A stretch of 35,348 nucleotides of DNA from positions 3,848 to 39,195 of the forward strand of contig JAGRPC010000045.1 of assembly GCA_020439925.1 (NCBI GenBank), given 5' to 3'. Source of the stretch: Verrucomicrobiia bacterium (GTDB taxonomy: Bacteria > Verrucomicrobiota > Verrucomicrobiia > Verrucomicrobiales > DEV007). A model generated the notes under the pieces. That model did not search any database. It was not told the DNA's origin and saw only the letters and a list, made by a program, of their open reading frames with translations. The translations under genes were made by a program, and so were the position numbers. How positions within the stretch are numbered: the stretch's first letter is position 1; each line of letters starts with the position of its first letter. Positions 10,542 to 18,738 of the stretch are shown here, in pieces.

Positions 10542-10922
10542 TCACTCGTCGAGTTTATCGCTCTCACCGGATTCCCGCCCCCCGCGCGGGACGGGCACCG
10601 CCTCACAGGTGTCGCGCCAGCCAGGAAAGTTCCAGAGGTTCGGAAATCCAGCGCATTGGACGGGCTTCACCGGCTGAATGCGGCAGTCGATGCCGTCGAG
10701 AAAAATGCACTCGTGGTCTGGTTTGGAAATCAGGGTCAGTCCGGTCCGGTTGAGCCTCACCTCGGTGTAACGCTCGATGAAATCCGCCTCTTCCAATCCC
10801 AGGAAAGCCGCGATGCCAGAAATTTCCGCATTCGAAACCGGAACCTCTCCGGGCCACCTGCAGCAGTTGCCACAGCGCTGGCAGAGGTAATACATGCCGG
10901 GTTCCATATCGTGGAGGCTCAT
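10542..10922 (-). CDS. YkgJ-type cysteine cluster protein
   Basis: This small protein (126 residues from 10922) has the YkgJ/CxxCxxCC pattern: CQRCGNCC near the start, a central [13 protein letters not shown] and a later VQCAGFP. The conserved cysteines probably bind a metal ion or an iron-sulfur cluster; the family reaction is unknown. The second half contains the usual phrase on residues PVKPVQC. Start choice is uncertain: ATGs at 10922, 10907 and 10895 are in frame, none with a good Shine-Dalgarno sequence, and the conserved domain begins right after the last. Upstream codons to 11198 lie in the mreB promoter and start region and are not used. It ends a few bases from the HU terminator. 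Confidence 0.85.
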
Positions 10923-11015
10923 TCCGGCACGATGCCCCTCTCTCGGGACTTTTTCATCCCTGAATCCCCTCCCATCCCGGGTCCGCGCGAATTTCCTCCC
11001 GGATTCACCGGCTCC

Positions 11016-11044
11016 TTGGCAAAAAGGATGCGATGTGTTAGTTT
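11016..11044 (+). promoter_or_regulatory. Candidate promoter of the mre operon
   Basis: TTGGCA (11016-11021) and TAGTTT (11039-11044) are separated by 17 bases, about 90 bases before the mreB start. The -35 match is good and the -10 weak. The position fits the divergent arrangement with the Cys-cluster gene, but the site is only a candidate. Confidence 0.35.
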
Positions 11045-11133
11045 TACGGTTTTTGGAATCGTTCCGGCAGATGCCCGCCCTGAGAGGATGGCGTCGATCC
11101 CCGTTATCCTCCCGACCCCTTGTTTCAGACTGC

Positions 11134-12165
11134 ATGATTGGCAAACTTATTGGAGCCTTCTCGAGCGACATTGGCATCGACCTCGGAACGGCCAACACGC
11201 TCGTCTATGTCCGGGACCACGGCATTGTCTTGCGGGAACCGTCCGTCGTCGCAGTGAAATCGGGGACCAACCTTGTCCTCGCAGTCGGAGACGATGCCAA
11301 GAGGATGCTTGGCCGCACTCCCGGAAACATTGTGGCAGTTCGCCCTCTCCGAGACGGAGTCATCGCCGACTACGAGGTGACCGAAGCGATGTTGAGGCAC
11401 TTCATCCGAAAGGTCCACAATCGTCGTCGCTGGATCCGCCCGCGCATCGTCATTGCCGTACCCTCCGGAATCACGGAAGTGGAGAAACGCGCCGTGAACG
11501 AATCGGCCGTCGCTGCCGGTGCGCGGGAGGTGCATCTCATCGAGGAACCGATGGCAGCCGCCATCGGAGTCGGTTTACCGGTTCAGGAAGCCGCCGCCAA
11601 CATGATCGTCGACATCGGGGGGGGCACCACGGAGGTGGCCATCATCTCGCTCTACGGGCTCGTCTACAGCCGCAGCGTGCGTGTCGCGGGAGACGAACTC
11701 GACGAAGCCATCATCAATTACCTGCGCCGAGCCTACAATCTCCTGATCGGCGAGCGGACGGCCGAGGAAATCAAGATTCGCATGGGTTCGGCCTTTCCGC
11801 AGCCCAAGGAAACCTCCGTGGAGGTAAAAGGGCGCGACCTTATCGCCGGACTACCCAAAACGGTCAAGGTCACCTCCTCCGAAATCCGGGAGGCCCTCAT
11901 GGATCCCCTCGGGGTCATCGTCGACTCGATCCGAGTGACCCTCGAACGTTGCCCTCCCGAACTCTCCGCCGACCTGGTCGACAGGGGCGTTGTCCTCGCC
12001 GGAGGAGGTGCCCTTCTCAAAGGCATCGACCAGCTTATTTCCGATGAGACGGGCCTTCCCGTTCATATCGCCGAGGATCCCCTGAGTGCCGTTGCGGAAG
12101 GGACTGGAAAGCTTCTCGACGAGCTTGATTTCCTTAAGAAAGTCACGCAACCGGCGCGTCATTGA
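11134..12165 (+). CDS. mreB: Rod shape-determining actin homolog MreB
   Basis: The product (343 residues) is the bacterial actin that organises elongation-type cell-wall synthesis at the inner membrane. The ATPase motifs are visible: phosphate 1 ([13 protein letters not shown], about residues 14-26), phosphate 2 ([14 protein letters not shown]) and the adenosine loop near the C-terminus ([11 protein letters not shown]). The N-terminal [11 protein letters not shown] can act as the amphipathic membrane-binding helix. The length is canonical. The ATG at 11134 is chosen because upstream codons to 10894 are not protein-like. It is the first gene of the mreB-mreC-mreD-PBP2 operon; the gap to mreC is 42 bases. 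Confidence 0.97.
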
Positions 12166-12207: not shown

Positions 12208-13092
12208 ATGAGCCGACTGAACCTCACCTTCCTGATCGCCTTCATCGGCCTGCTCATCTGGATCACCCTGTTTGATCCAGGAGCCGTCTCAACGATCCAG
12301 CGTGGAGCTCAACAAGCAATGCGCCCTTTCATCAAGGCCTCGAACGCGGTCGACAACACAGCCGGGGAGGTTGGAGGAGAGTCGCTCAGTATTCCCCAAC
12401 TGCGGGCCAACCTCTCGAAGGCGGAGCAGGAACGGGACCGGCTCAAGCTCGAGGTCATCCAACTCGACGAACTCCTCGAAGAAAACAACCAGCTTCGCAA
12501 GGCGCTGCAGTACCGGGAGCGCTCTCCCCGCTCCCTGATCGCGGCCCGCGTCATCAGCCGGAAGCCCTCCCAGTGGTACAGCACCCTCATCATCGACAAA
12601 GGCAGCGATGCGGGAATCGCCGTCGACAGCCCGGTGATTGTTCCTCTCGGTGAAGAAGCCGGGCTCGTCGGAAAGGTTTCCGAGGTTATCGGGCCGGAGT
12701 CGGCTGTTGTCCTCCTGTTGACCGACGAAATGTGCCAGGTCTCAGCTCGACTCGGAGAAACCCAGGAACAAGGCATCCTCAGCGGCCAGCGGGGTGCCTT
12801 GCGCAATCTTCCCAATCTGAGGCTGCGCTACCTGTCCAAAGAAGTCGAAACCGTTCCCGGAACCCGTGTCTACAGCTCCGGCACCGGCGAATTGTTCCCC
12901 CCCGACCTCTATCTCGGAGATGTCATCAGTCTCTCGACCGGCGTGATCGACGCGGAAGCTTCGATAAAACCCGCTGTCAACTTTGATGAACTGACTGATC
13001 TATTCATCATTCTCCCGGCCGACCGGGAGGGAGAAGGCCCACCGAATCCACCTGCGGAAAAACTCCCTGAAAAGCCCGTCTCCGCCCAATGA
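12208..13092 (+). CDS. mreC: Rod shape-determining protein MreC
   Basis: The product is 294 residues. One N-terminal membrane segment (residues 4-22) is followed by a coiled coil at about 65-100 (LRANLSKAEQERDRLKLE, ending in ENNQLRKAL), then the periplasmic beta-barrel domain with the family-type phrases ARVISRKPSQWY, IDKGSDAGI and GLVGKV. MreC connects the MreB filaments to PBP2 and activates its transpeptidase. The C-terminal tail after about residue 275 is Pro/Glu-rich and likely disordered. The stop overlaps the mreD start by four bases (ATGA), suggesting translational coupling. Confidence 0.95.
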   Translation: MSRLNLTFLIAFIGLLIWITLFDPGAVSTIQRGAQQAMRPFIKASNAVDNTAGEVGGESLSIPQLRANLSKAEQERDRLKLEVIQLDELLEENNQLRKALQYRERSPRSLIAARVISRKPSQWYSTLIIDKGSDAGIAVDSPVIVPLGEEAGLVGKVSEVIGPESAVVLLLTDEMCQVSARLGETQEQGILSGQRGALRNLPNLRLRYLSKEVETVPGTRVYSSGTGELFPPDLYLGDVISLSTGVIDAEASIKPAVNFDELTDLFIILPADREGEGPPNPPAEKLPEKPVSAQ

Positions 13093-13682
13093 GGTTCTTC
13101 ATTTTCCTGGGATTCCTCCTTTCCCTCTCCTTTGTCCTCCAGGAGTTCCTCCCCGTTTTTGACTGGGCATATGGTTCGAGGCTCCTGCTCGTCCACACGG
13201 TCTTCCTGACCTGTGCCGTGGCGGTCCCTTTTCCCGCGATGCTGGTCATGGCCTTGACCGCCGGATTCTGCTGGGACGCCCGTTACCATGTGCCCATCTA
13301 CCCCGACGACGCCACTCTCGGCATTCTCACCCAGGCGGAATTGCCCTTCGGCTTCACCATTTTCCTCTTTGGCATCACCGGGGCACTTATCCAGGGGGTG
13401 AGACCCCTGTTCCGACGGGGCCGCTGGGAACTGCCGGTCCTCATGATCGGACTCTGCACCGGGATCACTCTTCTCCTCGAATATCTCGTCATCAGCTTTC
13501 ACCGTGGAGAGCTCGAGGTCCCGCCGGAATTCTGGTGGAAATTGCTGATGACGTGCCTGTTTTCTTCTCTCGTTTCACCTTTTTTGCTGCTACTGTTGAG
13601 CCGCGTCGCGGGACGCCTTCGGTATCGCATCCGCACGGAAGGCCTGAAACGACGCCATACCTACGATGGTGACGCACTTTAG
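13089..13682 (+). CDS. mreD: Probable rod shape-determining protein MreD
   Basis: The product (197 residues) is a polytopic inner-membrane protein with about five hydrophobic segments (starting at residues 2, 30, 90, 118 and 154). The sequence is divergent, as MreD proteins usually are, so the call rests mainly on size, topology and location between mreC and PBP2. One loop contains WDARYHVPIYPDDATLG, which resembles a membrane-proximal family feature. It overlaps mreC by four bases and the PBP2 gene by 17, so it is firmly embedded in the operon. Confidence 0.8.
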   Translation: MRFFIFLGFLLSLSFVLQEFLPVFDWAYGSRLLLVHTVFLTCAVAVPFPAMLVMALTAGFCWDARYHVPIYPDDATLGILTQAELPFGFTIFLFGITGALIQGVRPLFRRGRWELPVLMIGLCTGITLLLEYLVISFHRGELEVPPEFWWKLLMTCLFSSLVSPFLLLLLSRVAGRLRYRIRTEGLKRRHTYDGDAL

Positions 13683-15837
13683 GTTCCGACTCTATCTCCT
13701 CGCCGTGGTGGTGATGGCGGGTTTCGGCCTGCTTGTCTACCGTCTCTACCAGATCCAGGTCACGGAATATGCGAGTTGGGCCGCGCGCGTGCCTGGGAGC
13801 AAACTGGAATCGGTGCGCATCCCCGGAATTCGCGGGGAAATCCGCGATCGCAACGGTTTCACTCTGGTCGACAGCACCCCCACCTACGAACTCCAGTTCG
13901 ACCTCCGGGAGATCGTTGCCGCCTACCTCAAGATCTATGGCAAGCTTCCGGAACCCCATGTCTGGGAACGCTTCGACAGTCGCGGCCAGCGTGAGGAAAA
14001 GAGCGAGACCGACATCGTCGCCATCGTCGAAGCCACGGTTTTTCCGGGCTTGCAGGAACTGGGCCTCCTCGCCGACTACAGCACCAATGCGATGAGGGTG
14101 CACTACCGATCGAACCGCGGCATCGTTCCCTTCACTTTCCGGCGCGACCTAAGCTTCAAGGAATTCGCCCGCTTTGCGGAAAACAACATCGGGATTCCGG
14201 GCGTCACCGTCACCCGGGCAGGACGACGCCGGTATCTCTATGATTCGGTCGCCTGCCACGTCCTCGGCTACATGAATCTCGCCGATCCGGATCAGGTCCC
14301 GGCCGAAAGAAAGCGGGAATTCAACTACTACGTCGGCGACGACTACGGGGTGATGGGAATCGAGAAGACCATGGATCACTATCTCCAGGGCAAACCCGGC
14401 AAGCTCATCATCGAAAAGGATGAGAAGGGCAAGTTCGTCGGGGAGGTCAGCCGCACCGAACCCGAACCCGGTTCCGACGTCTACCTCACCATCGACGCCC
14501 GCATCCAGATGGTGGCGGAGCAGAGCCTCCGCAAGGTCGGAAGAGGTGCCGCGGTGGTCATCGACCCGAGAAACGGAGATGTCCTGGCCATCGCCTCGGT
14601 TCCTTCCTTCAATCCGAACGTTTTCATTCCCGAAGTCCAGATCGACGACTGGAAACGCTACACCGAAGATCCCACAAGCCCCATGTTCAGCCGGGCGATC
14701 AACCCTTACGCCCCGGGTTCAACCGGAAAAATCCCGGTCGCCCTCGCGGGTTGCCTCTCGGGGTCCTGCAATCAACGTTTCAACTGCGGCGGCGGTGCCC
14801 AATACGGGAACAAATTCATGAAATGCTGGTCGTCCGGACACGGTACCCTTGATCTCAGTTCCGCGATCAAGGTCAGCTGCAACGGCTTCTTCTACCGGTA
14901 TGCCAATCACACCGGCATCCGCAACATCCAGACCATGACCAGCCTGCTCGGACTCGGACGGCTCACGGGGATCGAGTTGACCGGCGAAAATCCGGGAAAT
15001 ATCCCGAACCCCGAATGGCTCCGGATGCAGGGACTGCTCTGGAGCGACGCTTTCACCGCTCTCGTCTCCATCGGTCAGGGAGCGACCGAGGTTACCCCGC
15101 TGCAGATGGCCTCGGTCACCGCCACGGTGGCCAACGGAGGCAAGGTTTATCAGCCACGCATCGTCCGCAAGGTCGTCGACAAGGACGGGACGGTGGTCAA
15201 GGACGACACGCCTGTGCTTCGGGCCGACCTCACCCGCGAAGGTCTCACCCCCGAGCACATCGAACTCGTCAAGCGGGGCATGTGGCGGGTCGTCAACGAG
15301 GGAGGTGGAACGGCGGGACGCGCCAAGTCCGAACTGACGGTCATTTCCGGTAAAACCGGCACGGCCCAGACCGCCAATCCCCGCCAACCGACGAATGCCT
15401 GGTTTACCTGTTTCGCCCCCTACGATGAACCGGAACTCGCCGTCTGTGTGTTTGTCGAAAACGGCAATTCCGGCGGCGGTGCGGCCTCCCCCATCGCCAA
15501 GAACATCATCGACAACGTCATGGCCATGCAGAAGGGCGCCGAGATCGAGGTCACGGCCGTTCCCGAGGCCATCGGTCACACCGATCGGATCATGAGTGTC
15601 GCCTTTGAGGGAAGTGACGTTGCGGCCTTCGCCCAGGTAGACGAGGCCTCCGAATCCGCCGTCGACGTTGCCGCCTTCGTTCCCGACTCTCTTCAGGAGC
15701 GGAATTTCAGGCCGCTCAGCGGCCTTGCCCAGCCAACCATCAAACAAACCTCCGACAACCGGGGTCGAGTCGGGCAGCTCAATTCCACCCCGACTCCCAA
15801 ATTCCGTCCTTTCCAGTGGCTGAAAAAGAAGCGATGA
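13666..15837 (+). CDS. mrdA: Penicillin-binding protein 2 (elongation transpeptidase)
   Basis: The product is 723 residues, a class B PBP that cross-links peptidoglycan during side-wall growth. It has one membrane anchor (residues 9-28), a pedestal domain beginning with IRGEIRDRNG at 55-64, and a transpeptidase domain. The three catalytic motifs are STGK (Ser352 to Lys355), SCN (404-406) and KTG (563-565). Between the first two lies a Cys/His-rich segment: Cys363, Cys368, Cys374, Cys387, His391 and Cys405. Four of these fall where a metal site has been described in PBP2 of other bacteria. The tail after about residue 625 is a lineage-specific extension of about 100 residues, rich in Val, Ala and Asp and then basic. 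The start overlaps mreD by 17 bases. No rodA is adjacent. Confidence 0.95.
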   Translation: MVTHFRFRLYLLAVVVMAGFGLLVYRLYQIQVTEYASWAARVPGSKLESVRIPGIRGEIRDRNGFTLVDSTPTYELQFDLREIVAAYLKIYGKLPEPHVWERFDSRGQREEKSETDIVAIVEATVFPGLQELGLLADYSTNAMRVHYRSNRGIVPFTFRRDLSFKEFARFAENNIGIPGVTVTRAGRRRYLYDSVACHVLGYMNLADPDQVPAERKREFNYYVGDDYGVMGIEKTMDHYLQGKPGKLIIEKDEKGKFVGEVSRTEPEPGSDVYLTIDARIQMVAEQSLRKVGRGAAVVIDPRNGDVLAIASVPSFNPNVFIPEVQIDDWKRYTEDPTSPMFSRAINPYAPGSTGKIPVALAGCLSGSCNQRFNCGGGAQYGNKFMKCWSSGHGTLDLSSAIKVSCNGFFYRYANHTGIRNIQTMTSLLGLGRLTGIELTGENPGNIPNPEWLRMQGLLWSDAFTALVSIGQGATEVTPLQMASVTATVANGGKVYQPRIVRKVVDKDGTVVKDDTPVLRADLTREGLTPEHIELVKRGMWRVVNEGGGTAGRAKSELTVISGKTGTAQTANPRQPTNAWFTCFAPYDEPELAVCVFVENGNSGGGAASPIAKNIIDNVMAMQKGAEIEVTAVPEAIGHTDRIMSVAFEGSDVAAFAQVDEASESAVDVAAFVPDSLQERNFRPLSGLAQPTIKQTSDNRGRVGQLNSTPTPKFRPFQWLKKKR

Positions 15838-17589: not shown

Positions 17590-18738
17590 ATGCCGGTTAA
17601 CCGCAAACGTGTTGCCCTGCTCGTCGAGACTTCGCTCGGATCGGGACGCGAGATCCTGCGCGGCATCGCCCGTTATGCGAGGCAGGCCGGCGACTGGCAG
17701 CTCTTTCATGCGGCCGGTGGGCTTCCCGAGGCCTTTCCAGGCTGGATGGAGTCATGGGAAGGCGACGCCGTCATTGCCCGTATCCAGAACGAGACGACAC
17801 GCGAACGGCTCGAGTCGCTTTCCCTGCCCGTGATCGACGTTCTCGGAGTCTGCGAGAATCGTTTCCCCCTCGTGCATGTGGACGATGCCGCGATCGCACG
17901 GTCGGTGGCCGAACATTTCCGCTCGCGCCATTTCGTCCACTACGCCTTCTACGGAATCGCCGGCGAAAACTGGTCGCAAAGGCGCGCCTCCGCCTATCGG
18001 GAAGCCTGCAGGGGAGCAAAGAGCTTCTCCCTGCTCGAGACTGCTCGCGAAAGCGCCGGCTCGAAGGGCGATGCCACCCGTCAGCTGCACGAGTGGTTGC
18101 GCAATCTCCCCAAGCCAGCTGCGATGATGGTCTGCAGTGATCAGCGAGGTCTCGAGCTGCTTGAGGCCTGCCTTGCCGAAAACCTCTCCGTTCCCGAGGA
18201 GATCGCGGTGATCGGTGTGGACAATGATACCGCTCTCTGCGAAATCAGCGCACCGCCGCTCAGCAGTGTGCGAGGAGGCCACTTCAATGTCGGATTCGAG
18301 GCAGCAAAACTGCTCGATGCCATTCTCGGAGGGGAGCCCCCGCCGCAAACCTCTCTGCTGGTCAGGCCCAATGGCCTCGTCGAACGCGATTCGTCGAACC
18401 TGCAGGCCATTGCCGATCCGCTCGTGGCGAGAGGGGTGCGCTACATTCGCGAGCACCTCGCCGACTCCATCACCAACGACACCATTTCGAGAGCCGCGGG
18501 ACTTTCGCGCACCCTCTTTCAGAAGCGCTTTCGCGAGGCGACGGGCCAATCGGTGCGGGAGTTCATCCTCGGACGCCGGATCGAGCGGGCACTGCTCCTG
18601 ATACGCGACACCGATCTTCCCCTCGCGGAAGTCGCCATCCTGTGCGGCTTCCGGCACCAGGAATACCTCGGCCAGGTCGTGAAGCAGGCAACCGGAGACA
18701 CACCCGGCACCATCAGGAAAGCGGTGCGAAGCCAGTGA
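17590..18738 (+). CDS. XylR-like AraC-family regulator with LacI-type sensor
   Basis: The product is 382 residues with the layout of E. coli XylR: a periplasmic-binding-protein-like sugar sensor over residues 5-270, then a C-terminal AraC DNA-binding domain at about 283-380. The sensor starts with VALLVETSLGSGREILRGIARYA and includes IGVDNDTALCEISAPPLSS. The AraC part has two helix-turn-helix segments, NDTISRAAGLSRTLFQKRF and LAEVAILCGFRHQEYLG. It probably controls carbohydrate genes in response to a sugar, but no sugar transport or catabolism gene flanks it, so its targets lie elsewhere. It sits alone on the plus strand with no visible operator. Confidence 0.93.
   Translation: MPVNRKRVALLVETSLGSGREILRGIARYARQAGDWQLFHAAGGLPEAFPGWMESWEGDAVIARIQNETTRERLESLSLPVIDVLGVCENRFPLVHVDDAAIARSVAEHFRSRHFVHYAFYGIAGENWSQRRASAYREACRGAKSFSLLETARESAGSKGDATRQLHEWLRNLPKPAAMMVCSDQRGLELLEACLAENLSVPEEIAVIGVDNDTALCEISAPPLSSVRGGHFNVGFEAAKLLDAILGGEPPPQTSLLVRPNGLVERDSSNLQAIADPLVARGVRYIREHLADSITNDTISRAAGLSRTLFQKRFREATGQSVREFILGRRIERALLLIRDTDLPLAEVAILCGFRHQEYLGQVVKQATGDTPGTIRKAVRSQ

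Follow-up and report, generated by a model that had tools for sequence, protein, structure and literature searches.

The penicillin-binding protein 2 (PBP2) encoded in the window, that is, in the whole stretch of 35,348 nucleotides analysed here, very probably carries the structural zinc site already known from class B penicillin-binding proteins (PBPs), with Cys374, Cys387, His392 and Cys405 as the ligands, and this Cys-Cys-His-Cys (CCHC) arrangement is the commonest form of the PBP2 site in every sample taken. By analogy with the characterised relatives, the four residues of the window PBP2 would bind a metal, this metal would be zinc, and it would contribute to the stability of the protein and to the rod shape of the cell. 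Homology suggests that one zinc would link the hairpin lying over the active site with the loop of the SxN motif, and that this link would stabilise the transpeptidase domain.

The protein in question is the elongasome transpeptidase MrdA. In the profile search it scored 512.2 bits against the TIGR03423 model (curated cut-off, 455); both the PBP dimerisation domain (PF03717) and the transpeptidase domain (PF00905) are present, as are all three active-site motifs, SxxK, SxN and KTG (Table 1). The context of the gene is that of the elongasome, with mreB and mreC situated upstream and two matches to the FtsW/RodA family found elsewhere in the genome. The gene order is mreB, mreC, probable mreD, PBP2, and then a gene of the RNase E/G family; the probable mreD had no matches in Pfam or NCBIfam. 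In the mreB open reading frame (10894-12165), approximately 85 residues precede the match to MreB, hence the true start of this gene is probably internal. Positions 17590-18738 encode an XylR-like regulator comprising a periplasmic-binding-protein-like sensor domain and an AraC-type DNA-binding domain. The source assembly (5.97 Mb in 607 contigs) is 93% complete, and the closest named relatives, at 79% identity, are metagenome-assembled genomes (MAGs) of Verrucomicrobiales.

Table 1. Genes of the mre region and residues of PBP2 considered in the text (window coordinates; fractions are counts in the cross-phylum sample unless the genus is named).
Feature	Position	Strand	Basis
mreB	10894..12165	+	TIGR00904 and NF010539 over cut-off; match begins at residue 86-89
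mreC	12208..13092	+	PF04085 over cut-off; TIGR00219 at 88.4 bits, slightly below 92.75
Probable mreD	13089..13682	+	Position (between mreC and PBP2) and hydrophobic sequence only
mrdA/PBP2, class B penicillin-binding protein, elongasome transpeptidase, 723 aa	13666..15837	+	TIGR03423, PF00905, PF03717, model match
SxxK motif STGK, catalytic Ser352 and Lys355	14719..14730	+	Both 80/80 across phyla
Cys363, lineage-specific, not a conserved ligand	14752..14754	+	7/80 across phyla; 27/29 in genus
Cys368, lineage-specific, not a conserved ligand	14767..14769	+	0/80 across phyla; 11/29 in genus
Predicted zinc ligand 1, Cys374, end of strand 372-374	14785..14787	+	Cys in 71/80; model topology
Predicted zinc ligand 2, Cys387, loop 387-392	14824..14826	+	Cys in 66/80; model topology
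Predicted zinc ligand 3, His392, loop 387-392	14839..14841	+	His in 77/80; model topology
Predicted zinc ligand 4, Cys405, x of SxN (S404-C405-N406)	14878..14880	+	Cys in 77/80; loop 403-405
Third active-site motif KTGT (563-566)	15352..15363	+	Lys563 79/80 across phyla

Five of the eight cysteines of the protein fall within 54 residues (p = 1.1e-4 under uniform placement). A chance cluster was ruled out by conservation, which we consider a better test than the placement probability; the three remaining cysteines (197, 582 and 594) are conserved in only 11-15 of the 80 cross-phylum loci. The first-pass annotation had located Cys363, Cys368, Cys374, Cys387, Cys405 and the serine of STGK correctly, and the SCN motif does comprise residues 404-406, although its last nucleotide is 14883 rather than 14884. 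The histidine had been placed one residue too early: it is His392, at Ser+40, and not His391 at Ser+39. The candidate ligands are thus spaced as C374-x12-C387-x4-H392-x12-C405, and they show the features of the zinc class, that is, a cysteine as the x of SxN, a histidine and two Cys/Asp residues in the hairpin, and twelve residues between this histidine and the SxN cysteine. The zinc sites seen in crystals of Clostridioides difficile PBPs have the form C-x12-C-x6-H-x12-C and C-x14-C-x5-H-x12-C (PMC9974482, PMC9334274), and that of Acinetobacter baumannii PBP2, D-x14-D-x5-H-x12-C (PMC9974482).

The sampled homologues are spaced in a comparable way. The gap between ligands 3 and 4 equals twelve residues in 97 of the 98 aligned CCHC rows from the phylum of the window and in all 75 rows with an intact site across phyla; x12 is also the most frequent gap from ligand 1 to ligand 2, and the loop from ligand 2 to ligand 3 ranges from 3 to 9 residues. 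This loop likewise varies among the published motifs (PMC9974482).

The correspondence with the known metal site had originally been argued from distances to the active-site serine, quoted as +20, +35, +41 and +54. These values do not hold: in A. baumannii PBP2, where the serine is Ser326, the ligands lie at +24, +39, +45 and +58 (PMC9974482). Following this recomputation we rejected the offsets as a test of equivalence and used the alignment and the spacing between the ligands instead, both of which bear the equivalence out; in the alignment of homologues across phyla, the three cysteines and the histidine do occupy the known ligand positions. The residues D350, D365, H371 and C384, previously ascribed to E. 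coli, follow the numbering of A. baumannii PBP2, and an E. coli zinc site has to be withdrawn, as motif 2 in the solved E. coli sequence is S-A-D and the protein is classed as hydrogen-bonded (PMC9974482).

An AlphaFold2 model of the window PBP2 built from 79 sequences (pLDDT 90.5, pTM 0.88) was compared with A. baumannii PBP2 (7zg8), yielding Z = 44.9 and 3.9 Å over 513 residues. In the model, Cys374 terminates strand 372-374, Cys387 and His392 are situated in the loop 387-392 flanked by strands 383-386 and 393-395, and Cys405 is in the loop 403-405 flanked by helices 397-402 and 406-416. In A. baumannii PBP2, the corresponding residues sit where beta12 ends, in the loop joining beta14 to beta15, and in the one between alpha11 and alpha12 (PMC9974482). 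Hence, as far as the topology of the model is concerned, the four predicted ligands occupy the same secondary-structure elements as the A. baumannii zinc ligands, and spacing, cross-phylum conservation and topology agree in pointing to these four residues, among those initially proposed, as the metal site.

Two groups of characterised proteins are relevant here. In C. difficile, crystal structures of PBP3 and SpoVD show zinc bound by three cysteines and a histidine in the order CCHC, and mass spectrometry detected zinc in Bacillus subtilis SpoVD (PMC9334274). C. difficile SpoVD (7rcz) and PBP3 resemble the window PBP2 in the CCHC set, in the fourth ligand being the x of SxN and in the twelve residues between His and Cys; SpoVD, in addition, has the same x12 gap between the first two cysteines. 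They differ in being class B PBPs that act in the sporulation of a Firmicute, whereas the window protein is the PBP2 of an mre operon, and in the loop from ligand 2 to ligand 3, which has 6 and 5 residues in SpoVD and PBP3, respectively, compared to 4 in the window PBP2. A. baumannii PBP2 belongs to the same family as the window protein and shares with it the ligand topology, the SxN cysteine and the histidine, but has Asp at ligands 1 and 2, where the window PBP2 has Cys. Its site holds one zinc; changes of the ligands decreased the melting temperature by 8-18 °C and abolished the rod shape, and the thiols reacted with DTNB only once the metal had been chelated (PMC9974482). The solved PBP2 of Campylobacter jejuni (8yjx) has the CCHC set in its sequence, aligned as C-x12-C-x5-H-x12-C; we found no paper on 8yjx in the open-licence PMC literature. 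The E. coli (6g9p) and Pseudomonas aeruginosa (7kis) PBP2 share the family and the fold with the window protein, yet are described as lacking zinc, with Ala or Asn in place of the SxN cysteine and hydrogen bonds holding the loop (PMC9974482).

Among 144 other genomes of the window's phylum, 129 best hits were considered; the 15 left out comprised three with in-frame stops, one partial, seven unselected and four unlisted. In the aligned columns, 98 of the 129 are CCHC, a count that may lean high, as some of the seven unselected loci score like the rows without the site; nine are CC.C with a histidine outside the aligned column, and the site is absent from 22. All nine CC.C rows (L068, L073, L076, L089, L099, L109, L112, L132, L138) lack His at the aligned column and have another His 3-5 residues past the second Cys, as if the ligand had shifted along the loop. 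In the genus, where the gene was recovered from 29 of 32 other genomes, all 29 are CCHC (ligand 1 counted, ligands 2-4 read from printed segments).

The cross-phylum sample (n = 80, 18 named phyla) was collected with patterns outside the site. It comprises 61 CCHC, 9 CDHC, 4 DCHC and 1 DDHC loci, one locus cut by the contig end and four without the site; thus, [CD][CD]HC is found in 75 of the 80, each named phylum has at least one intact site, and ligands 1 and 2, when not Cys, are mostly Asp. The TIGR03423 model supplied two more samples. In Pseudomonadota (the phylum of L217), where 68 of 80 genomes reached the family cut-off, 48 of 68 loci are CCHC, seven are DDHC, one is CDHC and 12 have no complete set. 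In Acidobacteriota (the phylum of L213), 52 loci were fetched of the 57 over the cut-off, and 51 are CCHC, the remaining one (L342) being unreadable across the site because of an in-frame stop. These samples consist of best hits subject to the family cut-off and are not a census, and the tree is unrooted; we infer that CCHC would be ancestral in PBP2.

As the site was lost in 22 of 129 rows of the phylum and 4 of 80 rows across phyla, not every PBP2 needs it. Joint loss of ligands in the phylum set gave Fisher test p values down to 2.5e-20 with kinship ignored; however, since the tree provides only three well-supported independent pairs, too few for significance, we set this evidence aside and dropped joint loss as a proof that the ligands form a single functional unit. 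The residues S-D-R-C replace the site in a Methylacidimicrobium and a Methylacidiphilaceae MAG (L158, L159), and also in four genomes from one family of the window's class (L015, L016, L017, L020). The two named organisms are acidophiles, and an acid periplasm may preclude a thiolate-histidine site.

Of the five clustered cysteines listed in the first-pass annotation, Cys363 and Cys368 are not conserved across phyla and lie outside the conserved site. There is a modest chance that Cys363 and Cys368 (or Cys354 in the sister species) form a second, lineage-specific pair, additional to the zinc site and not replacing it. In the genus (n = 29), Cys363 occurs in 27 genomes, partnered by Cys368 in 11 and by Cys354 in 13, never by both (kinship uncorrected), although it is unpaired in 3 of the 29 and in L141-L144, and two of the 29 have none of the three cysteines. 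The window protein and 11 relatives have Gly354 with Cys363 and Cys368, and 13 relatives (L232-L235, L237-L244, L248) have the motif STCK, in which Cys354 is the x before the Lys of SxxK, together with Cys363 and Trp368. As Cys354 and Cys368 are mutually exclusive in the genus, again with kinship uncorrected, positions 354 and 368 may touch.

Two other readings concern the conserved residues themselves, which, as a Cys/His set, could also serve as a redox switch. The cysteines could form disulfides instead of binding metal, for instance Cys374-Cys405 linking the hairpin to SxN, or a thiol-disulfide switch of the SpoVD/StoA type. A disulfide is indeed found at the corresponding place in Mycobacterium tuberculosis PBPa (PbpA) (PMC9974482), an interaction of B. 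subtilis SpoVD with StoA is cited (PMC9334274) and such a switch has been proposed, and the sets found in the genus paralogues (Cys at ligands 1 and 4, Asn and Glu at 2 and 3) and in Thermus thermophilus PBP2 (6pl5; C, N and C at ligands 1, 2 and 4) would suit a disulfide. However, a disulfide needs no histidine, yet the histidine is conserved to the same extent as the SxN cysteine (77/80 each); Cys is replaced by Asp at ligands 1 or 2 in 14 of the 80 loci; and zinc was observed in the CCHC relatives (PMC9334274). The profile search yielded no family matches to DsbA, VKOR or DsbD in the 93% complete genome of the window, which argues weakly in the same direction; in the genus, DsbA and VKOR were each found in 2 of 33 genomes. 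Hence we consider disulfides improbable here. Still less probable is that the site holds another metal (Fe, Co or Cu) or mainly serves wall synthesis as a sensor of oxygen or redox state. Three thiolates should oxidise more readily than one, and a redox sensor was a speculation of Sacco et al. (PMC9334274); nevertheless, the metal was established as zinc in both A. baumannii and C. difficile (PMC9974482, PMC9334274), and an anaerobe-only feature would fit poorly with the spread of CCHC over Acidobacteriota, Nitrospinota and Pseudomonadota, as judged from the phyla.

The window's genome encodes two more PBP2-like proteins (L003, L004), both below the TIGR03423 cut-off, which keep the SxN cysteine and lack ligands 1-3. 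Among 20 paralogous loci from the genus (L251-L270), four have no readable motif, and the 16 readable by eye include 12 with C-N-E-C, three like L003 and L004, and one CCHC (L251). One could imagine two kinds of PBP2, a zinc-dependent CCHC protein from the mre operon and paralogues without the site, together acting as a switch by which the wall-elongation machinery would spare zinc. Zinc-containing and zinc-free paralogues of ribosomal proteins are a known parallel. Ten proteins selected from the open reading frames listed near L003 and L004 included none related to zinc; the only matches were to a PhoX phosphatase, a UDP-sugar dehydrogenase, VanZ (weakly), an AP-endonuclease-like TIM barrel, PSCyt2/PSD1 and a sigma-54 response regulator. 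We regard such a switch as quite unlikely.

The reading we retain for the window PBP2 is thus the structural zinc site. The CCHC set had been highlighted as a notable variant of a DDHC norm, an opinion that cannot be kept, as CCHC zinc structures have been published and CCHC prevails in all our samples; the window PBP2 itself is ordinary for its family, and its CCHC arrangement is real but known. Given the C. difficile structures and the remark in the A. baumannii paper on Cys at the first position, CCHC is an already published state of the site. In the A. baumannii paper, a search with its own DDHC motif confined the site to beta- and gamma-proteobacterial PBP2, with sporadic cases elsewhere, and the possibility of Cys at the first position in other phyla was named as a limit of that search (PMC9974482). 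The C. difficile paper places most zinc PBPs in Firmicutes and considers the motif convergent and, in its PBP2 clade, exclusively anaerobic (PMC9334274). Our search of the open-licence PMC literature found no paper on zinc binding by a verrucomicrobial PBP2. Hence, as far as these searches show, only the breadth of CCHC in PBP2 is new.

Together, the sequences suggest that PBP2 usually has a [CD][CD]HC site, mostly CCHC, in many phyla. If so, rod-shape synthesis would depend on zinc in a wide range of bacteria, and the zinc-free enzymes of E. coli and P. aeruginosa would be departures from this state.
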